A stretch of DNA of 64,000 nt from Phormidium sp. FACHB-1136 (GTDB taxonomy: Bacteria; Cyanobacteriota; Cyanobacteriia; Phormidesmidales; Phormidesmidaceae), in the NCBI RefSeq assembly GCF_014697375.1, contig NZ_JACJRS010000009.1:1-64000 (forward strand), in the 5' to 3' direction. How positions within the stretch are numbered: position 1 is the stretch's first letter; each line of letters begins with the position of its first letter. A program made the translations under genes and the position numbers. Below are positions 48,838-60,994 of the stretch, in pieces. Under the pieces are notes generated by a model. It was not told the origin of the DNA. It ran no database searches and saw nothing but the letters and a program-made list of their open reading frames with translations.

Positions 48838-48923
48838 TAGCTTAATCCTTCCGTTCGTGCAGCACTGCGATCATTAACCCCACTTAATGATCGCAGTGCT
48901 GCACGAACGGAAGGATTAAGCTA
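48838..48923. repeat. 40-bp perfect inverted repeat with 6-nt loop
   Basis: The arms 48838-48877 and 48884-48923 are exact reverse complements across 40 bp, with loop CCCCAC. A perfect arm this long between two co-directional genes is far more than a normal terminator. It lies directly beyond the IS110 terminator and may be the insertion target or an element end. Confidence 0.92.
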
Positions 48924-48932
48924 GCGCGGCGC

Positions 48933-48958
48933 AAAAAAGCCCCCGACGGTGCGGGGGC
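48933..48958 (-). terminator. Rho-independent terminator of the IS110 recombinase gene
   Basis: On the minus strand GCCCCCG pairs with CGGGGGC across a 6-nt loop, followed by TTTTTT. It lies 28 nt beyond the recombinase stop and ends 10 nt from the long palindrome. Confidence 0.85.
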
Positions 48959-48986
48959 ATACCTGATATTTTTTGAGCGATCCGGA

Positions 48987-50180
48987 CTACAGGGTAGCCA
49001 GCAAGTCTCGATAGAGGTCTTTAACGATTCGGGATGCCACCTTCATCACGGCCTGATTGTGGGGCATCTCTCCAAGCTGGTGATAGTAGTCGTAATGCTG
49101 TCGGAGTCTGGGCGGCTGGGCCAGTCGCCCCCCAATGATCACGATCTTGGTTTTGACGTGCAGATATAGTGCCGTGCGCCCCAGCTTCGAGCCAGCGGCC
49201 CGCTGTTCGCTAATTTGGCCGGACTGATAGAGTCGAGTCCCATTCCCTAGGGCCAGCCGGAAAGCCCCTAGGCTCTTGTCTCGGCGGTGGTAGCGCCCTT
49301 CGACTTTGGCACTGGGGAGGCGAATTTTGATGGGCTTGCCATCCTCAAGGAACTGGCTAAACGGGTGGATGCGGCTCAGCAGAACGGCCCGCGTCATGGG
49401 GCCAAAGCCAAACTTATCAAACACGGCTTGATAGGCGGCAAACTCTGGGGCGGAGACCAGGGCGTCGATCCTCTCCTCCATGGGGAACTGCTGGCGCTCG
49501 AGGTCGCAGACCTGGGTAGCGAGGGCAACGCTAAGACCTGACAGGCCAGACCCGATAGTTTCGTCTAGACTGGCCTGTCGCTGGGTGGCTCCTCGGACTT
49601 TCTCCCCTGCTAGGAAGCGCCACAGCGCCGGGGGTGACGCCTGGAGCCATTCCCTATTCTGTTGGGGCTTCGTGCCGGATTTGGTGCGGCAAGCCTCCGG
49701 CCATTCGTAGCTCAGTAGTTGCCATAGGCGATTTTGTTGGGCATTGATCGCCCTAGAAAGGGTCTGATGCTGCAAGGTGAGGTTCCTAAGTTCCTCGGCG
49801 TACTCACTCAGAAATGCCGAAGGATCGCCCTGGTTCATGGCCCCGTAGATGGCGAGAAAGGCCGCGTCGTAGCGGTCGCTCTTGGAGGCGATACCAGCGT
49901 ACTCCTTCAGGGCGCGAACTCGCTTGGGATTGACTCTCAACACGGTTTTACCGTTGGCCTTGAGGGTGTCTACCCAGATTCGAGAATAGTCCCCGGTTGG
50001 TTCGATGATGTAGCAGTCTCCTAGGTCTAGGAGCTTGCGGACGCCGTCGCTATTGGACAGCAGTGGAACGGGGGTATAGCTTCTAGCGAATGCTCCCAGG
50101 TCGGAGGGAACACTATCGCCGTCAAGCTTGCAGCAGAGAATAGAAGCCTTAGCGACTTCAACACCGATGATGGTTGGCAT
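48987..50180 (-). CDS. IS110-family DEDD recombinase (transposase)
   Basis: The 397-residue protein has the RuvC-like DEDD domain: IGVEVAKASI, where the usual first Asp is Glu, then IEPTGDYSRI (Glu) and KSDRYDAAFLAIYG (Asp, Asp). The C-terminal Tnp domain shows GFGPMTRAVLLSRI and the probable catalytic Ser in LYQSGQISE, with a long coiled-coil between. IS110 enzymes use a structured bridge RNA encoded beside the gene; a structured 280-nt region lies directly upstream. It might have inserted next to the cryptic element or might be part of it. Confidence 0.87.
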   Translation of the reverse strand: MPTIIGVEVAKASILCCKLDGDSVPSDLGAFARSYTPVPLLSNSDGVRKLLDLGDCYIIEPTGDYSRIWVDTLKANGKTVLRVNPKRVRALKEYAGIASKSDRYDAAFLAIYGAMNQGDPSAFLSEYAEELRNLTLQHQTLSRAINAQQNRLWQLLSYEWPEACRTKSGTKPQQNREWLQASPPALWRFLAGEKVRGATQRQASLDETIGSGLSGLSVALATQVCDLERQQFPMEERIDALVSAPEFAAYQAVFDKFGFGPMTRAVLLSRIHPFSQFLEDGKPIKIRLPSAKVEGRYHRRDKSLGAFRLALGNGTRLYQSGQISEQRAAGSKLGRTALYLHVKTKIVIIGGRLAQPPRLRQHYDYYHQLGEMPHNQAVMKVASRIVKDLYRDLLATL

Positions 50181-50461
50181 AAATCAAACTACCTGTATCG
50201 CAATCCGTTTTAGCTCCGGGGCTGTGAGCCACCGTTTAGCACGTCGTTCTCAGATCGGTGAGTCGATTACCGCCTAGTGGGTGGCTCCGGGCTGTTTGGC
50301 AACATCTAAAGAGCGTGAAGACGCGGATTAAGCTCAGCCCCAGCCCGGAGGCAAAGAGACTTAGGGCTCCGGGGTTGGAATCCGGGGCCGTGCAAGCCTC
50401 CCGCGACACTCCCCACGGTGGGGAATGTTTCGGCCCTTGGCAGGGGCCATCATCAGGCGGG
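50181..50461 (-). ncRNA. Structured non-coding region upstream of the IS110 gene (bridge RNA candidate)
   Basis: No gene fits here, yet the sequence holds several perfect stems: CTCCGGGCTG/CAGCCCGGAG (50285-50294 with 50341-50350), GAGCCACC/GGTGGCTC (50226-50233 with 50281-50288, overlapping and so alternative in part), CCCCAC/GTGGGG near 50411-50423 and GGCTCCGG/CCGGGGCC near 50365-50388. IS110-group elements encode their bridge RNA in just this place, before the recombinase start. Boundaries are not defined. Confidence 0.5.
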
Positions 50462-51004
50462 TTAATAGGGGAGATCGGGTTCTTCCTGGGGGCGAACCTC
50501 GATAGGGATTCCGTCTTCTGGCACAAAGAAGACTCGGCGATCATCGCCCTGGAGGTCTAGGGGCTCACGCTCAATCACTAGGGACTGAATGAGCTGGGTT
50601 AAGCGGTCAATGATGGTGATTCGGGGGTCGTCTTCGTGAGAGATGAACTGCTCGTCGTTGAGCAGGGCGGCGATGTCTACCAGTTCTCTCAGGGCGTTCA
50701 TGGCCCAGGGTTCGATGGTGGGGTTATTGGTCATCGGGGTTTCCTCTAGGAGTTCACAATCGAAGATTGAGAGCCAGCGGCGTAGGTTGGCTAGATACTC
50801 GCTGCGGGGCATCTCTAGCAGGTGACATTCGGCAACGTGGTTCAGGGAGCGCATCAGACTGTCTGGGTCTCGCCCCTGGTGCTCAGTGCTGCCACTGGCA
50901 AGTTCATCGGCCAGATAGGATGCCGTGAATCCCGCCTTGGCCAGGGCGAGGGCGATCCGTTCAGGAACTTGGTTATTCGGCGTGGGATTCGGGGGTGTTG
51001 TCAT
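50462..51004 (-). CDS. Hypothetical protein of the cryptic element
   Basis: Start ATG 51004 (MTTPPNPTPNNQVPE) gives 180 residues, acidic, with helical stretches (ERIALALAKAGFTASYLADEL, AMNALRELVDIAALLNDE). It overlaps the preceding gene end by 32 nt and closes the minus-strand operon that starts at 51902. The N-terminal pattern AKAGFTASYLADEL suggests a small helix-turn-helix-like unit, but this is not secure. Confidence 0.65.
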   Translation of the reverse strand: MTTPPNPTPNNQVPERIALALAKAGFTASYLADELASGSTEHQGRDPDSLMRSLNHVAECHLLEMPRSEYLANLRRWLSIFDCELLEETPMTNNPTIEPWAMNALRELVDIAALLNDEQFISHEDDPRITIIDRLTQLIQSLVIEREPLDLQGDDRRVFFVPEDGIPIEVRPQEEPDLPY

Positions 51005-51185
51005 AGGTGTAGAGGGGATAGCGGGCATGAAGGGCGGCTTGTTGCTCTAGGCGGGCCTTGTTGAGTAGTTGGGCCTGATCTCGCAGGTAGGCGAGGTCTG
51101 GCAAGGACATGGAGCGCATCTCCTTGAGAATTTCACTCATAGCGCGGTCTTTGGGGGTGATGTATTCGGCGTGTCCGGTGTTCAT
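50973..51185 (-). CDS. Small hypothetical protein of the cryptic element
   Basis: Start ATG 51185 (MNTGHAEYITPKD), with GGAGG 9 nt upstream, gives 70 residues. It has one long helix (MSLPDLAYLRDQAQLLNKARLEQQAALHAR) of coiled-coil character. It overlaps the stop of the upstream gene by 4 nt, as do the other genes of this operon. No family recognised. Confidence 0.65.
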   Translation of the reverse strand: MNTGHAEYITPKDRAMSEILKEMRSMSLPDLAYLRDQAQLLNKARLEQQAALHARYPLYTYDNTPESHAE

Positions 51186-51511
51186 TGCCAGGTTTCCTCC
51201 ATGCGAAATTTCATTTTGATGGCCTCTGCCGATCCGTTGGCTTGGCACATTGCCCGCCAAAACAGGCCCGCGTAGACGATGGACGAAAACCGCCCAATCT
51301 CTTTTCTAGTGGCACAGTCCACCACTCGATAAACTTTCTGAGGCAGGGGCGGGGGCATCTTGGTTTCTAGGCGCTGAGCTAGCTTTTCCGCCAGTTCACG
51401 TTTGCGCAGGTGCTTGCCAACCCCATGAACGTTTGCCCATTTGATGCCGTGACGGTCGGCGATCTCTTGTAGGCGGGGTAGGCGTAGGGTCATCAATTCT
51501 TCTTGGGTCAT
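51182..51511 (-). CDS. Small hypothetical protein with SAP/Rho-N-like motif
   Basis: The 109-residue protein begins MTQEELMTLRLPRLQEIADRHG, a helix-extended-helix reminiscent of SAP or Rho-N nucleic-acid-binding domains (HLRKRELAEKLAQRL continues it). The C-terminal part (VYRVVDCATRKEIGRFSSIVYA) is beta-rich. The start overlaps the upstream stop as ATGA. Confidence 0.65.
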   Translation of the reverse strand: MTQEELMTLRLPRLQEIADRHGIKWANVHGVGKHLRKRELAEKLAQRLETKMPPPLPQKVYRVVDCATRKEIGRFSSIVYAGLFWRAMCQANGSAEAIKMKFRMEETWQ

Positions 51512-51702
51512 AGGGTCTCCTTCTGCTGTAGTTCGCCTATCTCGCTCTCCAGGTCTGCCACACGCCGCCGAAGCTGACTGATATTGACGGCTCGACGGCG
51601 GTTGACTTCAGCCAGGTCGTTTATGCGGTCTTGTTGACCGAGAACCATTAGCTCAATTTTGGTGATTCGCCGAGCCATGGCCTCTAGGGCGTCTTCGGTC
51701 AT
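51508..51702 (-). CDS. Small coiled-coil protein of the cryptic element
   Basis: The 64-residue protein is helical almost throughout (AMARRITKIELMVLGQQDRI, VADLESEIGELQQKE). It overlaps both neighbours by 4 nt (ATGA), so its translation is coupled. It resembles its upstream neighbour in length and coiled-coil type. No family is recognised. Confidence 0.65.
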   Translation of the reverse strand: MTEDALEAMARRITKIELMVLGQQDRINDLAEVNRRRAVNISQLRRRVADLESEIGELQQKETL

Positions 51703-51902
51703 AGGTGCGCCTCCTCCAGGTCGTCAATCCGGCCTTTGGCGGCTTCTAATTCGATGTTGTGCTGTACCAGGGTCATGCGGTAGCACTCAAGCTTCTGCTC
51801 TAGGGCGGCGATGTCTAGCAGGGCTTTGACTAGCAGATCCTCTACCGCGCCTAGTCGGGCTTCATCTTCGGTCATGGGCCAGGTGCCTGTTTTTTCAGTC
51901 AT
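51699..51902 (-). CDS. Small coiled-coil protein, first gene of the element's regulatory operon
   Basis: Start ATG 51902 (MTEKTGTWPMTEDEARLG) or 51875 gives 67 or 58 residues, with one long helix (AVEDLLVKALLDIAALEQKLE). It is the promoter-proximal gene of the minus-strand operon and diverges from the ribbon-helix-helix gene; the ATACGCAT array lies about 180-250 nt upstream, so the leader is long. Confidence 0.6.
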   Translation of the reverse strand: MTEKTGTWPMTEDEARLGAVEDLLVKALLDIAALEQKLECYRMTLVQHNIELEAAKGRIDDLEEAHL

Positions 51903-52084
51903 CGGCCTGATCCTCTTCCGTTGTCCATGGTTGCTCCTTAGAAAATCCGGGGGGCGTCCCCCGGTCGCTACGCTTGACGCTCTCTTTGGCCTGGAGGGAA
52001 TTACACCCCCTGTGCGAACGCCCACACACCCCTAGGGCCAGCCAGGAAAGCCGGGAGTGATGTCCGGCTGTGGAGTTGGTTATC

Positions 52085-52153
52085 CATGCGCACATTATAC
52101 GCATAAATTGAGCTACAATACGCATAGAATACGCATCAATAAGTTATGCGTAT
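52085..52153. promoter_or_regulatory. Operator array: ATACGCAT boxes between divergent genes
   Basis: ATACGCAT occurs at 52097-52104, 52118-52125 and 52129-52136, its inverse ATGCGTAT at 52146-52153, and a part match (ATGCGCA) at 52085. The boxes lie 45-115 nt before the ribbon-helix-helix gene. Such regulators bind short repeated boxes, so autoregulation and control of the divergent operon is likely. Confidence 0.75.
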
Positions 52154-52197
52154 AAGAGGCGTACAATCATGGAGAAGATCTATGGAGAAGGTTGGGT

Positions 52198-52389
52198 ATG
52201 GCGCAGAAACCGCGACTGAACTTAACAGTGAGCAACGAGGCCAGGGACTTCATGGAGAAGGTGAAGCAGGAGGTAGGGGCCAAGTCCTTTTCGGAGCTCC
52301 TGGAGACTATGAAGGACTGGTACAAGCCATCATCAGCAGGGTCTCCCAAGACTCAGCCAGACGTCTTGGGAAAATCGTTGACCAGCTAA
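52198..52389 (+). CDS. Ribbon-helix-helix regulator; possible -1 frameshift product extends to 52517
   Basis: Start ATG 52198, after GGAGAAGG, gives 63 residues. The RHH pattern is PRLNLTVSNEARDFMEKVKQEVG then KSFSELLETMKDW. Near its end, at 52368-52374, G GGA AAA stands in the right register for -1 slippage; the -1 frame then runs through a helical segment (KIVDQLIKQEQEKLAEAEEC) to a stop at 52517, making a 106-residue RHH plus coiled-coil protein. The -1 frame has no good start of its own. A plain one-base mutation would look the same. Confidence 0.75.
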   Translation: MAQKPRLNLTVSNEARDFMEKVKQEVGAKSFSELLETMKDWYKPSSAGSPKTQPDVLGKSLTS

Positions 52390-52518
52390 TCAAGCAAGAG
52401 CAAGAGAAGCTGGCAGAAGCGGAGGAATGTGTGCGCTGGTATGAACGCGAGGTCGAAAAGCACACGACCTCATTAAAGGAACTGGAGGATCTGAAGTCTC
52501 AGTTAGGCAACGAATAGT

Positions 52519-52572
52519 CCACACAACAAAGCCCCAGAGGTGCGAGCGCATCTCTGGGGCTTTGTTGTGTGG
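52519..52572. terminator. Strong bidirectional terminator
   Basis: A perfect 21-bp stem: arm 52519-52539 and arm 52552-52572 with GCCCCAGAG/CTCTGGGGC cores and flanking AAA/TTT tracts, loop of 12 nt. It starts 2 nt after the -1 frame stop (52517) and serves the convergent genes on both sides. Its position supports 52517 as the true gene end. Confidence 0.9.
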
Positions 52573-52578
52573 TGGTGG

Positions 52579-52950
52579 TTAGTAGTGAACCTGCCTGTCT
52601 AGCTGAATCATGCCCTGATAGGCCTGGGTGCAATTATTCGGGGGCTTGATGTAGCCGACCCAGATCACGACATTACTCATTGTGACCAGGGCATCCAGGT
52701 ATTTAGCCTCTGGGTCTGATTTCATCCAGTGCTCAGCAATCTCAATGTTCATGTTCAGGATGGCTTCTTTGTCCTCAGTACAAGCCTGATCCAGTCGCTC
52801 TAGGGTTTCGGTGTAGCGATCAACGTGCTCGATATTGCCGTCCTTTACGGCCAGTCGCTGCACTGGGTCAACGGAATAGAGCAATCGAGGCCCAACAGAA
52901 ACGGCAACTACCACTCCCACCAGCCACCAGATCGGATGAACACGCCGCAT
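52579..52950 (-). CDS. Small membrane-anchored hypothetical protein
   Basis: The 123-residue product has an N-terminal signal anchor (IWWLVGVVVAVSVGPRLL) and a mostly helical soluble part with two cysteines (DQACTEDKEA, PPNNCTQAY). It converges on the RHH gene across the strong terminator. The cysteines may form a disulfide outside the cytoplasm. No family recognised. Confidence 0.65.
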   Translation of the reverse strand: MRRVHPIWWLVGVVVAVSVGPRLLYSVDPVQRLAVKDGNIEHVDRYTETLERLDQACTEDKEAILNMNIEIAEHWMKSDPEAKYLDALVTMSNVVIWVGYIKPPNNCTQAYQGMIQLDRQVHY

Positions 52951-52989
52951 AACCAGTAACCAAACTCAGCACTTTTAGGATTCCCAATC

Positions 52990-53226
52990 ATGCAGAAATC
53001 TAACCTTCACCTAGTCCCCGTGTCGTGCGCCCAGAGACAAGCAGTCCTCTGGATCAATCCGGCGTTCATCGCGTCGATGACCTTGCAGCCCCACGACTAC
53101 CAGGGAGAGAAGCTCTATCACGCCATCGTTCGCACGGTGGATCAGTGTGCCTTCTATGTTTCCGAGGATGATTACCTGCTGCTGTTGTCGGTGGCCACCC
53201 TGACCGCCAAGCAGGGGCGGGGATAG
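52990..53226 (+). CDS. Small hypothetical protein of the cryptic element
   Basis: The 78-residue protein shows a beta-rich pattern (QAVLWINPAFIASMTLQ, YHAIVRTVDQCAFYVSEDDYLLLLS). It is the first of three tightly packed plus-strand genes: 3 nt separate it from the next. The family is unknown. Confidence 0.65.
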   Translation: MQKSNLHLVPVSCAQRQAVLWINPAFIASMTLQPHDYQGEKLYHAIVRTVDQCAFYVSEDDYLLLLSVATLTAKQGRG

Positions 53227-53229
53227 GTC

Positions 53230-53454
53230 ATGCAACTCAACCTCTTAGACCTGATCGCCGAGGCAGAAGCCCAGGCGCGAGACGCGGCGGACGACGCCGT
53301 TCTCGCAGAGATCGAAGCCCGTGGGCTGAGCGTGGGCCAGGGGCTGGTTGCGAGGGCACACGCACGGAATGCATTAGCCAAGGCCCGGTGTATGCCACGG
53401 GGCGCACAAGAGTATTTTTTGTCCTTAATTGTGGAAGGTTTAACCAATGATTGA
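53230..53454 (+). CDS. Small helical hypothetical protein
   Basis: The 74-residue protein is Ala- and acid-rich (LIAEAEAQARDAADDAVLAEIEA) with a basic second half. It overlaps the start of the next small gene (ATGATTGA at 53447-53454), so the genes form one operon. No domain recognised. Confidence 0.6.
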   Translation: MQLNLLDLIAEAEAQARDAADDAVLAEIEARGLSVGQGLVARAHARNALAKARCMPRGAQEYFLSLIVEGLTND

Positions 53455-53599
53455 CCTACTCAACCTCAGTAGCAGCTACGTTATGACCGCTGACGAGCGG
53501 TGGTTCTGGGAGATTCGCGACTACTGCTGCTCCGTGACGCGGTTTCCATCCCTCCAGCAGTGTCAGGAAGACTTCAGGGAGTGGATAGGGGATTTTTAG
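53447..53599 (+). CDS. 50-residue hypothetical protein
   Basis: ATG 53447 to TAG 53597-53599 gives 50 residues (MIDLLNLSSSYVM, RWFWEIRDYCCSVTRFP, QQCQEDFREWIGDF). The start overlaps the previous stop by 8 nt and the product is Trp- and Cys-rich. The tight coupling supports it being real despite its size; nothing is known of its role. Confidence 0.5.
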   Translation: MIDLLNLSSSYVMTADERWFWEIRDYCCSVTRFPSLQQCQEDFREWIGDF

Positions 53600-53805
53600 C
53601 GGATTCCTAGAGGGTAGCCCAGTGGGGGCAGGGGCACATAGGTGTCGCAGCCCGTGCCATAACAGCAAACCTCAACCTCAGGGAATGGGGCATCCGTCAC
53701 CACCGCCCAGCCCACCGCCACAAACACCAGTAGCAGGAAGATGCAGGCCACGCAGCCCACAGTCCAGGCCAGCGCCACCACTACAGAATCCATCAGGTCA
53801 ATCAT
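53596..53805 (-). CDS. Small single-pass membrane protein
   Basis: The 69-residue protein has one strong transmembrane helix (VVVALAWTVGCVACIFLLLV) and a short Cys-containing tail. Its ATG at 53805 overlaps, on the opposite strand, the ATG of the next gene in a CATG. Its 3' end overlaps the preceding plus-strand gene by 4 nt. A holin-like role is possible but unsupported. Confidence 0.5.
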   Translation of the reverse strand: MIDLMDSVVVALAWTVGCVACIFLLLVFVAVGWAVVTDAPFPEVEVCCYGTGCDTYVPLPPLGYPLGIR

Positions 53806-54370
53806 GTCTACATGTCCACATCTTTTCCCCAGCCTAGACCACCCCAGTGGTTACTATTGCCGCCTGAGTTGCGGGGGCGAGTGCTTCAACGCAAAACCAC
53901 TGTCACAACCCCTAAAAGGTGAACTCACTGGCGCGAATTTCAAGGGCGACGACAAAAACGTGTCCGACAGCTTGGAACGTCGCGGTTCTAGCTCTGTCAT
54001 CGATGGGGCGGAAACCCAAGATTTTCCTTTGGGAAACGTGTCCGACAGCTTGAAACCTCGTGCCATCGATGACGCTGATCCAGGAGAGGAGGACGACCAG
54101 CTTTACGGGATGTTTTGCCGCACTGGCCAGTTCTGGCATGAGGCGGGGCCATACCCCAGTAAGGGGCGGCTCTACTATCGCTACCGCTGGGGCCATGGCC
54201 ATGCGATAGAGGGGGTTCGCCACATTCCAGGCGGCTCCATGGTGCGGGGGCTGGTGCGAGAACGGGCGGCGATTGTGGAGCGGGCCGTGTATGTGGATTT
54301 TCGGCCCCACCACGAGATTGTGGCCCTGATTGATGGATGGCGACGGCTACGGCCTAAGATCAATCTGTGA
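53804..54370 (+). CDS. Hypothetical protein with Cys-rich N-terminus and AP2/Arm-like C-terminal domain
   Basis: Start ATG 53804 (MSTCPHLFPSLDH) gives 188 residues; the frame is open further upstream. A Cys/His-rich N-terminus (CPHLF, CRLSCGGEC) is followed by a linker with an 18-bp direct repeat (53957-53974, 54035-54052; NVSDSL twice) and a C-terminal domain GRLYYRYRWGHGHAIEGVRHIPGG. That YRYR...RHIPGG pattern resembles DNA-binding arms found in cyanobacterial mobile elements. A good terminator follows. Confidence 0.65.
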   Translation: MSTCPHLFPSLDHPSGYYCRLSCGGECFNAKPLSQPLKGELTGANFKGDDKNVSDSLERRGSSSVIDGAETQDFPLGNVSDSLKPRAIDDADPGEEDDQLYGMFCRTGQFWHEAGPYPSKGRLYYRYRWGHGHAIEGVRHIPGGSMVRGLVRERAAIVERAVYVDFRPHHEIVALIDGWRRLRPKINL

Positions 54371-54383
54371 CTGTTACCCAGCA

Positions 54384-54417
54384 AAAACCCCGGAGGGGGT
54401 AGCCTCTCCGGGGTTTT
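54384..54417 (+). terminator. Rho-independent terminator
   Basis: AAAACCCCGGAG (54384-54395) pairs with CTCCGGGGTTTT (54406-54417), with a 10-nt loop. It lies 14 nt after the stop at 54370 and can work in both directions, ending the minus-strand module too. Confidence 0.88.
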
Positions 54418-54462
54418 CGTTTGCGCCCCAACCTGGCTTAGCCTGACTTAGCCTGACTTAGC

Positions 54463-54756
54463 CTAATCGCGATGGGCAGCGCGTGGGGTAAAGGGATGGG
54501 GGTATTGTCCGGCACTGGCCAGTTGGAGGTATCGTTCCAGGTCGTCTAGCCGTCGGGCGAGGGCATCCAGGCGGCTGTTGGTGTCGGTGTCGATGATTCT
54601 CAGGCTTTCGAGTCCCACCAAGGCAACTTTGACGTTTTCGTCCAGGCGGGTGAGCAGGGCGATCTGCTTGCTGTAGCTGCCCAACAGATTGCGGGTGGCC
54701 ACGGCCAGGGCGGTGATCACCGACAGGGTGAGGGGAATGTAGATCTCAAGTCCCAT
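54463..54756 (-). CDS. Membrane-anchored coiled-coil protein (last gene of the late-like module)
   Basis: The 97-residue protein has an N-terminal transmembrane helix (IYIPLTLSVITALAVAT) and a coiled coil (DTNSRLDALARRLDDLERYLQLA). The plan, a short N-terminal anchor plus soluble helix, is like phage holins or spanin i-components, but also like many small proteins. It overlaps the 3' end of the 52-residue gene by 11 nt. Confidence 0.65.
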   Translation of the reverse strand: MGLEIYIPLTLSVITALAVATRNLLGSYSKQIALLTRLDENVKVALVGLESLRIIDTDTNSRLDALARRLDDLERYLQLASAGQYPHPFTPRAAHRD

Positions 54757-54904
54757 GGTTCATACCTGCGGGAAATTCACCACGGGAGCCACCGCCCTGG
54801 CGACGGCCTGGAAATTCATCACGGGAGCCAGCGGCGAGGACGGCCAACCCCAGGGCGACGGCGGCGAGGGCGGCGAGGATTTGTTTGCGGGGGTTGCGTT
54901 GCAT
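54746..54904 (-). CDS. 52-residue secreted or anchored peptide
   Basis: ATG 54904 to TGA 54746 gives 52 residues: basic start (MQRNPRKQ), a hydrophobic signal (ILAALAAVALGLAVLAAGS), then two GSR(D/G)EFP copies from a 30-nt internal duplication. Overlap with the next gene suggests coupled translation. This might pair with it as an outer component, which is only a guess. Confidence 0.45.
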   Translation of the reverse strand: MQRNPRKQILAALAAVALGLAVLAAGSRDEFPGRRQGGGSRGEFPAGMNHGT

Positions 54905-54915
54905 GGCCTTGGGCC

Positions 54916-55269
54916 TCAAGGGGTGGGGGCGGGGGGTACCCAGGCATCTAGGCTCACCCGCCAGTTGTCTTGGGTGTAGATGCGGCTGCGCCAGGTCGCC
55001 TTGATGGCAATGTCGCGGGCGACGGGGGCCAAGCCTACGGGCACGGGATATTCAAGGAGTTGCACCCGTGGATCTGGGTAAACCTTGCGGATGCCAAAGA
55101 AGGCGTCGTAGGCGGGATGGTGGGAGGCGATCAGAAGGGTTGCCGATACCCCGCCCAGGTCATAGCTATGGGTGACGCGAAACAGGCGGGTTTCGAGGTC
55201 GTCTAGGATTTCAAAGAAGCGCCATTCGGTCTGGCTGGGCTCAATCTGCCCTAAAGAATACCAGGGCAT
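54916..55269 (-). CDS. Hypothetical protein of the late-like module
   Basis: The 117-residue, beta-rich protein (YSLGQIEPSQTEWRFFEIL, RVTHSYDLGGVSATLLIASH) has no signal. It overlaps the preceding gene by 19 nt. It might be a structural component of a particle, but there is no recognised motif. The end PPAPTP is proline-rich. Confidence 0.6.
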   Translation of the reverse strand: MPWYSLGQIEPSQTEWRFFEILDDLETRLFRVTHSYDLGGVSATLLIASHHPAYDAFFGIRKVYPDPRVQLLEYPVPVGLAPVARDIAIKATWRSRIYTQDNWRVSLDAWVPPAPTP

Positions 55270-55478
55270 ATCTCACCCCTTTCCCAGCCGTCGGCTAGGC
55301 GGTAGGGGTCTGCGATGCCGTAGGTAGCGAGGGCGTCTCCAAAGTCATCAGGACTCATCAGTCCCAGGCGATACCGCTGCGTTGCTTCTGCGCGGGCCAA
55401 CATCTGTTTAAGCTGCGCTTGCCATTCTGAGGGCGTCATCTCGTCAGTGCGTATCGCGGGGGTTTGAAACAAGTCCAT
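55251..55478 (-). CDS. Small hypothetical protein of the late-like module
   Basis: The 75-residue helical protein (TPSEWQAQLKQMLARAEATQ, SPDDFGDALATYGIADPYRLADGW) overlaps the next gene by 19 nt. AGAAATC-type upstream bases contain GGAG 8 nt before the ATG. No family recognised. Confidence 0.6.
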   Translation of the reverse strand: MDLFQTPAIRTDEMTPSEWQAQLKQMLARAEATQRYRLGLMSPDDFGDALATYGIADPYRLADGWERGEICPGIL

Positions 55479-55524
55479 GATGATTTCTCCGGGGGTTGTG
55501 GTGCCGCTAGAACCTAGCCAGGGC

Positions 55525-56097
55525 TTAGGTCATGAAGGACATGGGAGCCCGTTCAAGTTCGAGCCATGCCCGACCGTTTTTGGTGCCCAGTAACGCGGCT
55601 CGTTTACTGCCCTCTACAGTGCCAAAGATCGCCTCGAAGTCGTCGAAGAGATCCGCCGCCGTAAAGGCTCCCGATGCCTGAGAGAAAGGCGCACTGTAAT
55701 GGCTCTGGCCACCGGAGTTTTCGTAGTACCGACTCACCGAGGAACCCCAAGGGGTACTGGTGCGGACGGGGGTCGTTTCTCCTTTGTACCAGTGGACGCG
55801 GGAGGGCTTGATACCAGTACCCCGGAGCCGTAGCGCGGCTTCTCCCGCGCCGAGAGTCGTTTTAAGGCCCAGCTCAGCCGCCGTCACCAGGGCTAGCGTG
55901 GATTCGCTCACGTTGACGCTAAAGATCATCGGCTCAGCGCCGACACGCAAGGCCAGGGAACGGTAGTACAGGGTTGTGCTTGCACCGCGCTGCTCGATGG
56001 GGCCGGGGGTGCTTGGGCCTTTGTTGGCAAAATAGGCCTGTCGAGCTTGGGCGATAGTGGCTTGGCGGGTGTAATACCACGGTTGCTTAAGGGCCAT
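55525..56097 (-). CDS. Hypothetical structural-like protein
   Basis: The 190-residue protein is rich in Thr, Ser, Ala and aromatic residues with few Lys/Cys, typical of beta-rich structural proteins (STTLYYRSLALRVG, MIFSVNVSESTLALVTAAELG, WGSSVSRYYENSGG). A ribosome site AGGT is 9 nt upstream. It is a candidate capsid- or tail-type component on composition only. Confidence 0.6.
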   Translation of the reverse strand: MALKQPWYYTRQATIAQARQAYFANKGPSTPGPIEQRGASTTLYYRSLALRVGAEPMIFSVNVSESTLALVTAAELGLKTTLGAGEAALRLRGTGIKPSRVHWYKGETTPVRTSTPWGSSVSRYYENSGGQSHYSAPFSQASGAFTAADLFDDFEAIFGTVEGSKRAALLGTKNGRAWLELERAPMSFMT

Positions 56098-56175
56098 GGG
56101 GGATACCTCTAGGAAGGGATAGGAAGGGGAAGACTGATCCCAATCTAGCCCTCGAACTCATCACTTTTTTTCACC

Positions 56176-56194
56176 GGAACCCCTAAAGGGTTCC
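56176..56194. other. Small hairpin in the late-like module
   Basis: GGAACCC (56176-56182) and GGGTTCC (56188-56194) pair perfectly with a 5-nt loop, in the 115-nt gap between two minus-strand genes. It has A-rich, not T-rich, sequence downstream on that strand, so it is more likely a processing or stability element than a terminator. Confidence 0.4.
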
Positions 56195-56212
56195 AATAAC
56201 TTTTTAAATTCC

Positions 56213-57049
56213 CTAACCCGTCTCTAGGGCGGTGGGGTGGACGCCGGAACGGTCATAGAGCACTACAGGGTTCGGGAGTCCGTGAACATGGAGTAAGGCT
56301 GTCTGAAATCGCACGGAGGCGATGGGGCGTTTGCGGGGGCGGCGGCGAGTCTGGCCAAAAATGAAATCGTTCCCCGGAATCGTGGGAAATGCCTCCATAG
56401 GGGCTTCATTCTGGCTGTAGTTCATTTTCGACCAGTCTGGGGTGTCGTTCTGAACGTCTAACACCTTGGAAATCACTTCCCTGGCTTCGGATTCGGAGCG
56501 GGTGAGAATTTGGAGGGCGTAACCCTTCCCCCAGTCGTTGTACGTCGCCATGTCCTTACCCTTGCGCCACACATAACCAGGCCCACCCACACCAAAGGCG
56601 GTACGGATACGGTTTGCGAAGGTGCCCGCAATGGTGGGGGTGATTGTCTCGGTGGTGTGATCCATCAGCCGGAAGGAGATTTCCCCCGTCACTGGGGGGT
56701 ATCCCGGCTCAACATCCGCCAGATCTTCTTGAAAGAACAGGGCGACCTGGGGCCGAAACTTGCGGCTTTCCTGGAATGAGGAGACCGGGATGCCGTAGTA
56801 CGGAACTCGGTAGGCTTGGCTGCGGATGTGCTCCAGAAACCAGCACTTCAGCAGCGTCACCATATAGGGGTCTTCGTCCTCATGAAGTAGAGCTTTGGCC
56901 AGTATCCCGCGATGGGTGGTGAGGTCGGGTGACCAATTTTCGTCCACACCGAAATCTGAGAAGTACTCACGGGTTTCTCGGTTCTGCCATCGGCGAATGA
57001 TGGCCTGCAGGGTCTCTTCTTGGACGGGCTGAATATTTTGCGCTTCCAT
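56213..57049 (-). CDS. Hypothetical protein of the late-like module (278 aa)
   Basis: The 278-residue soluble protein has a helical N-terminus (LQAIIRRWQNRETREYFSD) and a mixed alpha/beta body (VALFFQEDLADVEPGYPPVTG, FANRIRTAFGVGGPGYVWRKG, YALQILTRSESEAREVISKVL). No Walker motif, nuclease signature or signal was found. It starts 3 nt after the 855-residue gene stops, so they are coupled. I cannot assign a family. Confidence 0.65.
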   Translation of the reverse strand: MEAQNIQPVQEETLQAIIRRWQNRETREYFSDFGVDENWSPDLTTHRGILAKALLHEDEDPYMVTLLKCWFLEHIRSQAYRVPYYGIPVSSFQESRKFRPQVALFFQEDLADVEPGYPPVTGEISFRLMDHTTETITPTIAGTFANRIRTAFGVGGPGYVWRKGKDMATYNDWGKGYALQILTRSESEAREVISKVLDVQNDTPDWSKMNYSQNEAPMEAFPTIPGNDFIFGQTRRRPRKRPIASVRFQTALLHVHGLPNPVVLYDRSGVHPTALETG

Positions 57050-57051
57050 GG

Positions 57052-59619
57052 CTATCCTTTCTGGGCCTCAGAGGGAAGAACATCGGGAACATTGTTGATG
57101 TACTCTTTTAGGGTTGCGTTGGCCTCCTGCACGGGGCTGTTGTCAAGCCATGGATCGGGAATGCCGTCTCGAACGGAATCCTTAAAACGCATCCAGTTCT
57201 CTTTGGACTCCTCTACCTCGTCTTGGATCTCAATCACAAGGCTAGTGGCCTGCATCCCTACAGAAATCCTGTCCTCTGCGTTTTCGAGGGCGTCATTCAC
57301 TTTCGAGAATCGGCTGCGGAAGCGACTCTGAGCGCGGGCTGATTCGCTCATCCAGGGATAGGAGCGCTCACTAACCACGCCCCAACGCTTCAGGGCGTTA
57401 CCGATTCGGCCCGTGTTCTCGCCGATCCACTCCATCAGGTCTAGGGAGCTGTCGGCAATGCTTCGGACTGTCCAGAGAATCGCATTAGCGCTTTGAATGA
57501 TGCGGTTGGCTTTGTTCCAGGCTTCATTGATGCCGTGGTAGCGTTCCTCTCCAAGGACACCCTTCAGGAAGTTTTCAACGGTGTCGCCCACCACTTCGCC
57601 AACATCGATCACCTGGTCTTCCTCATTCCGAATCCCTGCGGCCTGGAGTGCCTGAGAAATTAACTGAAAGAAGGTGTCGCCCACGTCGCGAGACAACATA
57701 CTGACGTTGTGCATGACGCCGATAAAGGTCAGCACGTTCAAAACCTTGTCCATGCGGGTCGCTCTCCAGGCCGTTCGCATGAAGTTGTTCACCGTCTGCA
57801 ACAGGGTGAAGGTTTCGCCCAGCTTGACGCGGCTCTCGATGCCGATTCCGTAGAGGCCAGGGAAGCCAGAAACGGGATTATTGGCCTTGGTGTTGGTGTC
57901 GGTGGCCTTGGCCTGAATATCCGCCACCCGTTGAAATTCGTAAAAGCAGCTCCCCTTTGGCCCCTCGGTGGGGGTTTGGCGCACGGGCTGTTCTACCCGC
58001 CGCACGTTGGGGTTATCGGCGGGGTTGTTGACCAGGTTGGGGCTACTGGGAGTGTTCACGGGCCACCGCGCACCCACCGGAATCGGCACAGGCAACACGG
58101 GCGGCGAAAAGAGTTGTCGGGTCACGTCCTCCCGACCATAGGGCCAGCGAATCTGGCGATCACCGTTCTCCTGCTCGATAATCTCCGTCCCGTCGCGCAG
58201 CTTTGTAATGCGGGGCCACGTTTGTGGGCCTTCGGTGGGCGATTCGGTGAAGGCGTCGCCGGGGCTTCCGGCTGGGCGGGTGGGGGTGTCGGGGTCGTCT
58301 GCCAGGTTGGGCGCGTCCCGTGGGGGGGCATTGGGGTCAAGGTCGGGCGGGCCGGGGGGTGCAAAGGGGTTGGTGGGGGTGCTCGGTGCCTCGGTGGGGG
58401 GGGGGCTAAAGTTTGGGGCATCCTGGGGCGGCGCTAGGGGTTGGGTGTCGGGTGGCGCTTGGGGCTGGGTCTGGGGCCAGGGCAGATCGCCTCCAGGCTG
58501 ATAGGCGGGGCTTGGGACAGGAGGGGCGGGGAGTAGATTGGGGGCGGCTCCCGGCGTGGTGGGTTGGCGGCTGCTCCGGGCTGGGTTGGGCGCGTAGGTG
58601 GGGGGCTGGGCAGGTTGGTAGGGGGGGTCGGTGCCGCCGTCCACTCTCGCCCAGGAATATGCAGGCCCCATGGAATTCCGCCCAAGGAAGACCGCGTACG
58701 TAGACGGGGGGGGGAGGTTCGGCACGTCCCAGACCTGATAGTAATCAATGTAGCCAGTCCACAGGGGGCGGGGCTCGATTCGCTCGTTTAGAATAGGGCC
58801 GAGCATCTGTGGGCTCCCGTTAACGGTTCCCGATGCCCCAGAACCGAAAAGCCCGTAAATAGCACCCGCAACGGAGCCCACCCCGCCAGATTCGGGGGTA
58901 GCATCCTCCAGCATTAGCCCTTGGGTGAGGGCGTCGGGATCTAGTTGGTTGGGGTATTCTTCACCCAGCATCCAGCCGGGAACATTGTCTAGGTTGCCGA
59001 GCTGCTGCTGTTCGGCGACATAGTCGGCGTAGGTGGGCCAATCCCGCCGATCCATCTCAGCTTGAATGGCCATCATCCCCACAGACAGCAGCATCCCGCC
59101 GCCCCCAGGCATTCCCCGCCCACCAATGCGGAACCCTGCGCCCTTCGCGCTGACGGGGCGACCTGGATTGACGCCGCTAGGGGCTGCTGCGGGGGAATTG
59201 GCAGCGTTAACGGGAGTGGCAGGGGTGCGACCATACCCCGGCTGATATTGCACAAAGGGATCCGCACGATACCCACCAGCAGCCGCATTATTCACAACAC
59301 CCGTAGACCCCCCACGAAACGATCCAGGGGCGGGGCTTGATGGGGAAGATATTCCACCACTGTAGGTGCGAGTAGCAGGGGAGCCTATGTAATCGGGATT
59401 TACGGGGTTGGCGGGGTTCGAGTTGTACCGGAATTGCAGACCACCACTAGGCAGAGGACGCCCGCGATTAACGGGGGCGGGGCCAGGGTTAGACCGCACA
59501 TGATAGACCCCACCCCCACCAGCGGGGGACGACGTAGGGGCGGATGAATTGACGCCTTGAAAGATGGACTCCAGCCGCGCCCGATCCTGCATGACGCCAA
59601 GGGAATTAATGGGCATCAC
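57052..59619 (-). CDS. Large proline-rich protein with helical C-terminal domain (855 aa)
   Basis: Residues 1-130 are Gly/Ser/Pro-rich and disordered. A Gly-rich hydrophobic segment follows (RGMPGGGGMLLSVGMMAIQAE, about 165-190). Residues about 330-560 are strongly Pro-rich with TP and PP runs. Then comes a helical domain (about 620-855) with weakly hydrophobic helices (FLKGVLGEERYHGINEAWNK) and coiled-coil-like stretches. The plan could suit a structural, injected or tape-measure-like protein, but length and composition are the only hints. Confidence 0.7.
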   Translation of the reverse strand: MMPINSLGVMQDRARLESIFQGVNSSAPTSSPAGGGGVYHVRSNPGPAPVNRGRPLPSGGLQFRYNSNPANPVNPDYIGSPATRTYSGGISSPSSPAPGSFRGGSTGVVNNAAAGGYRADPFVQYQPGYGRTPATPVNAANSPAAAPSGVNPGRPVSAKGAGFRIGGRGMPGGGGMLLSVGMMAIQAEMDRRDWPTYADYVAEQQQLGNLDNVPGWMLGEEYPNQLDPDALTQGLMLEDATPESGGVGSVAGAIYGLFGSGASGTVNGSPQMLGPILNERIEPRPLWTGYIDYYQVWDVPNLPPPSTYAVFLGRNSMGPAYSWARVDGGTDPPYQPAQPPTYAPNPARSSRQPTTPGAAPNLLPAPPVPSPAYQPGGDLPWPQTQPQAPPDTQPLAPPQDAPNFSPPPTEAPSTPTNPFAPPGPPDLDPNAPPRDAPNLADDPDTPTRPAGSPGDAFTESPTEGPQTWPRITKLRDGTEIIEQENGDRQIRWPYGREDVTRQLFSPPVLPVPIPVGARWPVNTPSSPNLVNNPADNPNVRRVEQPVRQTPTEGPKGSCFYEFQRVADIQAKATDTNTKANNPVSGFPGLYGIGIESRVKLGETFTLLQTVNNFMRTAWRATRMDKVLNVLTFIGVMHNVSMLSRDVGDTFFQLISQALQAAGIRNEEDQVIDVGEVVGDTVENFLKGVLGEERYHGINEAWNKANRIIQSANAILWTVRSIADSSLDLMEWIGENTGRIGNALKRWGVVSERSYPWMSESARAQSRFRSRFSKVNDALENAEDRISVGMQATSLVIEIQDEVEESKENWMRFKDSVRDGIPDPWLDNSPVQEANATLKEYINNVPDVLPSEAQKG

Positions 59620-59626
59620 TCACCCC

Positions 59627-59926
59627 CTAGGGCAAAAAGGCGGGGGGGATGGCGGCGTTAGAAATCTCCAAGGCTTCTTGGAAAATCTTTGTGGTGCTTT
59701 CCCGCCACGTCTGAGACAGCGGGATAGAAACCCGGAAGATAATACACTCCTCCCCATTGGCCGCTAGACCATCCTGGGCCGTAATGCGGGGAATCAACGG
59801 CGCGGAGTCGCTCTCTTGGTAGCGGGTGTTCTTGTGGAGCTGGTACAGGGCGCACAAGGCCCAGACGATCAGTTTCTCTAGCGTGTTCACGGTGGCCGGA
59901 AGATTGGCGGTTGCAAATGCAGACAT
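59627..59926 (-). CDS. Small hypothetical protein, first gene of the late-like module
   Basis: Start ATG 59926 (MSAFATANLPATVN) gives 99 residues; a longer frame reaches 59986. It has a helix LEKLIVWALCALYQLHKNT and a beta-rich end (ECIIFRVSIPLSQTW). It is the promoter-proximal gene of the minus-strand module and diverges from the recombinase. The stop is 8 nt from the next start. Confidence 0.6.
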   Translation of the reverse strand: MSAFATANLPATVNTLEKLIVWALCALYQLHKNTRYQESDSAPLIPRITAQDGLAANGEECIIFRVSIPLSQTWRESTTKIFQEALEISNAAIPPAFLP

Positions 59927-59978
59927 AGGAAAATCAGGAACTCTAGCCCCGTTGTAATCCTCACGATTCTTATTAGAA

Positions 59979-60008
59979 AACCCCATAAAATAGATATTTC
60001 ATGGGGTT
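59979..60008. promoter_or_regulatory. Inverted repeat between divergent module and recombinase genes
   Basis: AACCCCAT (59979-59986) and ATGGGGTT (60001-60008) are exact inverted repeats; the AT-rich centre also has partial symmetry. It lies 53 nt before the first module gene and 107 nt before the recombinase, so it may be an operator for both. Confidence 0.5.
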
Positions 60009-60114
60009 AGAATTTAAGCTTAGAACCCTTGCCCTGCAAGACTTTTGGGCAATTCAATAGATAGAAAAGAATTTGATACCCCATCTTTTTGATGTTTTTA
60101 GGGGAATTCATTCA

Positions 60115-60675
60115 ATGAAAATCAACGGAAACGGACGGGCGGAGCCGCTCACAAAAGAAGAGTTCGGGAAAGTGTTAAGAGAGTTAACAGGAAAGTATCG
60201 AGCGATCTTTGCCCTGTGCTGGTACACCGCCGAACGACCGGGAGCCATCCTCCAGTTAACCGTGAGTGATGTCTACGACGATCCAGTCAGCAGGAAGGCG
60301 CGGCGAACCCTGGTCATCCCAGCCCGCAAACGAAAGGACAAGCGGACTAGAGAGGTTCCATGCTCCAAGCATCTCGCCTCAGAACTGCGACTCTATGACG
60401 CCCCACGGGAAGGGTGGTTATTCCCCACCAACAGCCACTCAGGCCACCTCACCTATGGCACATACTATTGGCTTCTGATGAAAACCTTTGAGCGGCTGGG
60501 GATGATCGGCTACAGCCCCTACTCAACACGCCGGGGGGCGCTAACCCACCTACTCAGGGAAGGGCAATCAACTAGACGGATCCAAGAAATCAGTGGTCAT
60601 GTCTCTCTAGCCAGCCTTCAGCCCTACTTAGAGAGCAGCGAAGAGGAACGGCGGAAGACAGCGGAACTCCTCTAG
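60115..60675 (+). CDS. Compact tyrosine recombinase (catalytic domain only)
   Basis: Start ATG 60115 (MKINGNGRAEPLTKEEF) gives 186 residues. Catalytic Arg is in TAERPGAILQL, the second motif is YSTRRGALTHLL (Ser where His is usual, Arg kept), the GH of EISGHVSLAS and the nucleophile Tyr in LQPYLES follow. There is no N-terminal core-binding domain, so it is about 100 residues shorter than phage integrases. It likely integrates or excises the element, with an attachment site just after it. Confidence 0.87.
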   Translation: MKINGNGRAEPLTKEEFGKVLRELTGKYRAIFALCWYTAERPGAILQLTVSDVYDDPVSRKARRTLVIPARKRKDKRTREVPCSKHLASELRLYDAPREGWLFPTNSHSGHLTYGTYYWLLMKTFERLGMIGYSPYSTRRGALTHLLREGQSTRRIQEISGHVSLASLQPYLESSEEERRKTAELL

Positions 60676-60994
60676 GCGTGGGGCGGGGGTTTAATTCATT
60701 AGAACAACATCTAAACGACTGGGGAACCACAGGCCGTAAGCATCAAGTTTCGTTGCGGGGGGCGTGCGGTGGAGGATTGAGGAGACACCCCTAGAGCGAT
60801 GGCTAATTGGGATCTGACCGTCCCAGCAATTGTCGCTATGATTTAGGCAAGTTCACCATACCAATCCTCAGCGTCGATGCCAGCCCTCGCTAACCATGAG
60901 TCCAGTGTGCTTTGGGCACCATCGCGGCATCCCTAGCTGGAAGGGCCGTCATCCATCGGCCACCCCTGCCTCCGTTCAGCGCCCTGCCCCCTAA
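60676..60994. other. 319-nt spacer at the right end of the cryptic element
   Basis: It contains the 11-mer CAACATCTAAA (60705-60715), shared with 50300-50310, and no open frame, tRNA or repeat I recognise. The true element boundary probably lies here. Confidence 0.4.

Follow-up and report, generated by a model that had tools for sequence, protein, structure and literature searches.

The 64,000-nucleotide stretch of Phormidium sp. FACHB-1136 analysed here (contig NZ_JACJRS010000009.1, positions 1 to 64,000; "the window" below) carries an integrated element of 11.86 kb, and our subject is a recombinase gene of the IS110 family near one end of it together with the non-coding leader that precedes this gene, a candidate bridge RNA. 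Read 5' to 3', the leader holds a predicted hammerhead ribozyme, a target-binding loop and a donor-binding loop, after which the recombinase gene begins. The features concerned are as follows.

48845-60710: integrated element, 11.86 kb, between two AT cores at 48845-48846 and 60709-60710
48987-50180, minus strand: IS110-family recombinase, 397 amino acids (Pfam PF01548 and alignment with relatives)
50181-50461, minus strand: candidate bridge-RNA leader, bounded by the stop of the upstream minus-strand open reading frame (ORF), 50462-51028, and by the recombinase start
50400-50461, minus strand: type I hammerhead ribozyme (core sequence, Rfam matches in relatives, covariation and a specificity search)
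50181-50404, minus strand: predicted mature bridge-RNA region with its 5' end at 50404, running on into the recombinase mRNA (conserved leader and fold z-score)
50285-50350, minus strand: target-binding loop with an inner hairpin at 50313-50324; the 10-bp stem 50341-50350/50285-50294 closes it
50226-50287, minus strand: donor-binding loop, closed by the 8-bp stem 50280-50287/50226-50233 (sequence and minimum-energy fold)
60073-60675, plus strand: small tyrosine recombinase, 200 amino acids (Pfam Phage_integrase, E 3.1e-14), close to the right element end

A first-pass annotation of this DNA, made from the letters alone, had placed a structured RNA in front of a DEDD gene of the IS110 family, and the recombinase does match Pfam DEDD_Tnp_IS110 (PF01548) with an E value of 1.8e-12. 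Its RuvC-like residues are E8, E60, D102 and D105, and the serine of its SG motif is S320. E60, D102 and D105 are invariant in the aligned relatives and carry identical numbers in IS621 (PMC11208158). The replacement of the first Asp by Glu (E8), which had also been pointed out, is found in 7/7 members of the window clade, the other relatives having Asp. There is no match to Pfam PF02371, the Tnp domain with the catalytic serine; nevertheless, the SG serine is conserved in all 21 of the 21 aligned sequences. The host genome has one full-length copy of the recombinase. Close relatives (61-69% identity) occur in the same genus, and named records assign some to Nodosilinea and Leptolyngbyaceae; many cyanobacteria have more distant relatives, of about 30-37% identity. 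These relatives were obtained by whole-genome search and alignment query, and the 80 loci kept from an alignment-based GTDB scan are all cyanobacterial (80/80). Single-sequence searches of GTDB contigs and of IMG/VR returned nothing, and a further look in IMG/VR also gave no relative of the recombinase.

The stems that the first-pass annotation had listed in the leader are real, with one correction. The 10-bp stem CTCCGGGCTG/CAGCCCGGAG (50285-50294/50341-50350) is exact, and the 8-bp stem is likewise perfect, although 50226-50233 pairs with 50280-50287 rather than with 50281-50288; the CCCCAC hairpin noticed near 50411 spans 50406-50428 and turns out to be stem III of the hammerhead. The folding energy of the leader is modestly unusual (z -2.32, with 2/200 shuffles as good), and because this z-score is only moderate we built the case on comparison with relatives. 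The leader is conserved among relatives of 61-69% identity, and their comparison revealed compensatory changes at 12 of the 32 predicted leader pairs. The 10-bp stem of the target loop shows compensatory changes across seven relatives; conservation of the 8-bp stem of the donor loop is weaker. Part of the target loop is tandemly duplicated in some relatives, designated here by our own genome and locus labels (G414, G434, G438b and G436). In the leaders of loci L109, L110, L119 and L134 it is the right-hand part of the target loop that is duplicated in tandem (AACGUUGCUACACGGCCC twice), and of the two copies in G434 and G438b, the second matches the target and the first (UACGGAAC) is similar to the left donor end.

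Proposed guides and the two ends of the element

The boundaries of the element can be read from a congener, G424, in which the element is absent at the same locus and the flanks are joined directly. The empty site reads GATTAGCTTAATC/TAAACCACTGG, and the junctions in the window read GATTAGCTTAATC/CTTCCG on the left and GAACAACATC/TAAACG on the right; the inserted unit is therefore 11.86 kb long. Empty sites were also found for the G439 element and for the G414 group. The IS110 gene lies near the left end of the inserted unit and the small tyrosine recombinase adjoins the right end. Three segments of the leader can be set against these junctions.

50325-50334, minus strand: left target guide AGCUUAAUCC, of which AGCTTAATC is identical to the chromosomal flank at 48839-48847
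50300-50311, minus strand: right target guide CUUUAGAUGUUG, complementary to the right junction CAACATCTAAA at 60705-60715
50241-50250, minus strand: left donor guide AGAACGACGU, matching the right end of the element, AGAACAAC (60701-60708), at 7/8 nt

Among the close relatives, the loop of the 10-bp stem contains a variable segment that is identical, in 7/7 cases, to the chromosomal flank bordering the gene-proximal element end (in the window, left guide AGCUUAAUC and flank AGCTTAATC). When the left guides were compared with all junctions, the true pairing scored 74 against a permutation mean of 50.6, and the only two of 5,040 permutations to reach 74 were the true order itself and an exchange of two guides that have the same sequence. 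Between G414 (UUUAAAAAUG with TTTAAAAATG) and the pair G434 and G438b (UUUAUAAAUG with TTTATAAATG), a single base differs in the guide and the same base differs in the site. The right guide, which is the second variable segment of the target loop, is complementary to the chromosome at the far element end, 12 kb off. It reads UUUAGAU in the window, AUUUAAC in G414 and G438b, UAAGA in G439 and CCAAUAAU in G438. All five right ends match (5/5, with 25/25 non-core bases in the five elements), a result that 2/120 permutations reach. These position-specific tests were used instead of a longest-common-word test (RNA versus 400 nt downstream, in all relatives), which was too blunt. No intact target was found elsewhere in the genome to which the window belongs.

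The donor guide follows the end of the element in the same manner. The RNA of the second loop reads AGAACGAC in the window, AGAAUGAC in G414, G439 and G438b, and AGAGCGAC in G438a, and the corresponding element ends are AGAACAAC, AGAATAAC and AGAGCAAC, an agreement of 7/8 bases in three types. The donor end of distant relatives, CTA[AG]A[GC]NGAA, is located just beyond the recombinase gene; RNA motif and DNA motif are the same at 21/21 loci of four types, compared with a shuffled mean of 7.5 (0/20,000 shuffles did as well). Two copies of one relative within a single genome, homologous over ~19 kb, both stop exactly after CTAGAGTGAAC, an end that lies ~50 bases past the recombinase gene and is matched by the RNA AGAGUGAA. 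In the window clade the donor end is at the opposite element side, which means that the recombinase-RNA module has the reverse orientation with respect to the ends.

The predicted hammerhead ribozyme

The hammerhead begins right behind the stop codon of the upstream ORF, and the core nucleotides, the three stems and the GUC cleavage site of this ribozyme class are all present in the window leader. Stem I is formed by CCCGC (50457-50461) and GCGGG (50400-50404); the core sequence CUGAUGA (50450-50456) is followed by a U bulge (50449), stem II (50432-50448) and GAA; and then come stem III (50406-50428) and the cleavage triplet GUC (50405-50407). The predicted cut would fall between 50405 and 50404, and the RNA would then start with GCGGG.

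Rfam Hammerhead_1 (RF00163) matches the same place in the leaders of five close relatives with E values of 9.7e-5 to 0.12, all five under the gathering score of 34 bits (best 33.8). Rfam at E<=1 reported no hammerhead in the distant relatives, though the motif is clear there by covariation. Across 29 distinct hammerheads, two to five pair types occur at positions 2-5 of stem II and 3-6 of stem III, where 27-29 of the 29 sequences are paired, and a loop pseudoknot, in which loop II pairs with nucleotides 3' of stem I, was equalled by 0/2,000 shuffles. The core is present in 105 of the 118 testable cyanobacterial leaders and the full fold in 80 of them. When all fetched DNA, 3.6 Mb with both strands and overlaps counted, was searched strictly for the three stems, 32 distinct hammerheads were obtained, and each has an IS110-like gene of its own strand at most 700 nt downstream (32/32); the same search of a Markov control gave 0 matches. 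On the window itself Rfam returned microRNA matches only, which we rejected as products of a palindrome at the left element end and of chance. That the hammerhead directly follows the upstream stop codon supports the view that it would release the 5' end of the bridge RNA from a longer transcript.

Proposed integration of the whole element and its alternatives

Given the order of the modules and the way in which the guides track the two junctions of the whole element, our preferred reading is a bridge RNA that would program integration of the entire element, and we put at about 0.9 the probability that the leader is the bridge RNA of the IS110-family recombinase and that the pair integrates all 11.9 kb where the RNA directs it. 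The hammerhead would be carried on a transcript that may come in from the minus-strand genes upstream, and its self-cutting would leave a bridge RNA that begins with GCGGG at 50404. The recombinase would bind this RNA, the first loop of which would pair with the chromosome across the AT core (left guide AGCTTAATC, right guide CTAAA) and the second with the element end AGAACAAC; finally, the enzyme would swap strands at the cores of a circular element and the target, thereby inserting the element.

A bridge RNA had been proposed in the first-pass annotation, which named covariation among homologues and loop matches to element ends and target sites as checks, and both have now been obtained. It had further guessed that so diverged a recombinase could use a different RNA architecture. 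The architecture does differ, in its 5' hammerhead, its inverted module and the apparent movement of a whole 12-kb element, but the suggested tie to the Asp-to-Glu change is not supported, because Asp-bearing relatives have the same leader of hammerhead plus bridge RNA. The hammerhead, the guide matches and the 11.9-kb size of the mobile unit were absent from that annotation.

Hammerhead anatomy and its covariation, the element boundaries, and the covarying guide-target and guide-donor matches are present in the DNA, and it is from these that we infer transcription, self-cleavage, binding and strand exchange. Several points count against a bridge RNA that places the whole element. The seven left guides amount to five independent sites, with G414, G434 and G438b sharing a homologous site, and for G438a the right-end match was made with the end taken from a sister element of that genome. 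Inspection by eye for a right donor guide brought up no convincing pairing, apart from a partial match in the duplicated loop of G434 and G438b, and the core bases of the donor guide are GU, compared with AT at the right junction in the window. The window hammerhead has an extra U between CUGAUGA and stem II and is without an Rfam match. We had considered this U a sign of decay and dropped the idea because the same bulge before stem II is also present in six other distinct sequences. Lastly, part of the task could fall to the tyrosine recombinase that every element of this type also carries.

Could that tyrosine recombinase, at the other end, be what integrates the element, leaving the IS110 gene and its RNA to serve elsewhere, for example in inversion or regulation? 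It adjoins the right end, and it accompanies the IS110 gene in 10/10 of the IS110-bearing elements compared and is found in 0/11 of the related elements without an IS110 gene. Tyrosine integrases usually leave a longer shared core, however, and the junctions here have only 3 bp (ATC) in common in the window and a single base in G414. Integration by this enzyme also leaves unexplained why the RNA guides fit the two junctions of the whole element and vary along with them, and we regard it as improbable. Still less probable is that the IS110 gene and its RNA are a separate small insertion sequence that landed in a prophage-like element. IS110 elements are normally small and have their RNA in the leader (PMC11208160), but here the target guides have their chromosomal matches beyond the limits of the 11.9-kb element, the donor guide fits the far element end, the empty site shows insertion of the whole element, the two copies of the ~19-kb relative share the same end, and the IS110 gene, the tyrosine recombinase and the cargo genes have been conserved together in cyanobacteria. 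An ordinary regulatory 5' leader with no guide role (an attenuator or a self-cleaving mRNA element) would suit a moderately well folding sequence directly upstream of an ORF, and hammerheads of unknown function have been seen near phage integrases (PMC3088659), but the covariation of guides with target and donor makes this just as hard to credit.

The systems closest to the proposed bridge RNA are those of the IS110 family, of which IS621 is the example (PMC11208160; structure, PMC11208158). Shared with IS621 are the RuvC-like DEDD domain and conserved serine, the RNA in the 5' leader, a target loop followed by a donor loop, guides that include the dinucleotide core, and the polarity of pairing, the left guide in IS621 being identical and the right guide complementary to the top strand (PMC11208160). 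Unlike IS621, the present system has a hammerhead at the 5' end, a moved unit that includes cargo genes and measures ~12 kb, or about 19 kb in one relative, a core of AT or GT rather than CT, Glu in place of the first Asp, a module inverted relative to the element ends in the window clade, and a target loop partly duplicated in some members. The seekRNAs of IS1111/IS110 elements are similar in that a non-coding RNA complementary to the flanks directs the recombinase; the only ribozymes in that study were laboratory additions (hepatitis delta virus, HDV), whereas here a natural hammerhead would set the 5' end (PMC11187229). Processing of the long seekRNA was suggested to be by the transposase (PMC11187229). 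The hammerhead resembles bacterial type I hammerheads (PMC3088659; RF00163) in its CUGANGA/GAAA core, GUC triplet, three stems and pairing of loop II with the stem I side, and differs from them in having a defined gene partner, a proposed role in guide-RNA 5' processing and, in a subset, a U-bulged stem II. When hammerheads near phage integrases were noted in bacteria in 2011 their function was open (PMC3088659); should our reading hold, making the 5' end of a guide RNA would be a likely role for those near bacterial integrases. Our literature search, which was limited and is no proof of novelty, found no paper linking natural hammerhead ribozymes to IS110 or bridge RNA.

If our reading is true, nature uses a bridge RNA to place a multi-gene element of at least 12 kb at a chosen site, which bears on the size of cargo that these recombinases can manage; bridge RNAs have so far been described for small insertion sequences. 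The IS110-like Piv recombinases of filamentous phages offer another case of an IS110-family enzyme on a larger mobile element, and we know of no guide RNA in those phages. In contrast to the Piv phages, the cargo here has no phage-record or PHROG match except the two recombinases. IS110 and Piv are both mentioned in PMC11209303. For the wider family of cyanobacterial elements, which measure about 12-19 kb and are perhaps proviruses of a new kind, we think it rather probable that the entire element is integrated under bridge-RNA guidance, that the hammerhead is dedicated to guide-RNA processing, and that retargeting occurs as guide loop and site co-evolve, to which a palindrome that copies the target could contribute. 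About a hundred natural sets of guide, target and donor would then be on offer for reading the pairing code, and it could be tested in this family whether the core dinucleotide, the orientation of the module and processing by a ribozyme can vary.

Palindrome, cargo genes and other observations

Three further features of the element deserve mention.

48838-48923: perfect palindrome of 86 bp at the left element end, with 40-bp arms and a 6-nt loop
56213-57049, minus strand: conserved cargo protein, 278 amino acids, of the element family, present in 27 of 386 cyanobacterial genomes
57052-59619, minus strand: conserved cargo protein, 855 amino acids, shared among related elements

The outer 10 bp of the palindrome are the chromosomal target, and its inner arm repeats this target inside the element; similar palindromes carrying their own target are found in related elements (G414 and G434). 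The 278-residue protein has no Pfam, PHROG or significant fold or structure match, the 855-residue protein has no match among 50,697 phage records, and no Pfam or PHROG virion match pointing to virion or packaging genes was found in the element. Related elements across cyanobacteria have the IS110 gene, the tyrosine recombinase and uncharacterised cargo proteins in common. The family marked by the 278- and 855-residue proteins, neither of which has a phage-family match, is widespread in cyanobacteria (window 48987-60710 and loci L087-L106), and its subtypes carry either an IS110 gene with a small tyrosine recombinase or a larger tyrosine recombinase with a protein that matches AAA and, weakly, Toprim. 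At locus L128 (G438:C4, about 1666757-1684961), an IS110 element with its own right end stands beside the truncated IS110 gene and tyrosine recombinase remnant of a second element, an arrangement of adjacent or nested elements. Just past a plus-strand ORF of the element in the window lies a nearly perfect 26-bp inverted repeat with a 2-nt loop (52519-52572), possibly a transcription terminator.

Elsewhere, an Anabaena genome has a HEARO RNA (Rfam RF02033, E 1.7e-29) near an IS110-like gene (L017, 1168-1394), and positions 6469-8574 of the window encode a 701-residue protein that has pentapeptide-like repeats as well as a long stretch in which Ala-Phe (Ala/Val/Gly) is repeated.
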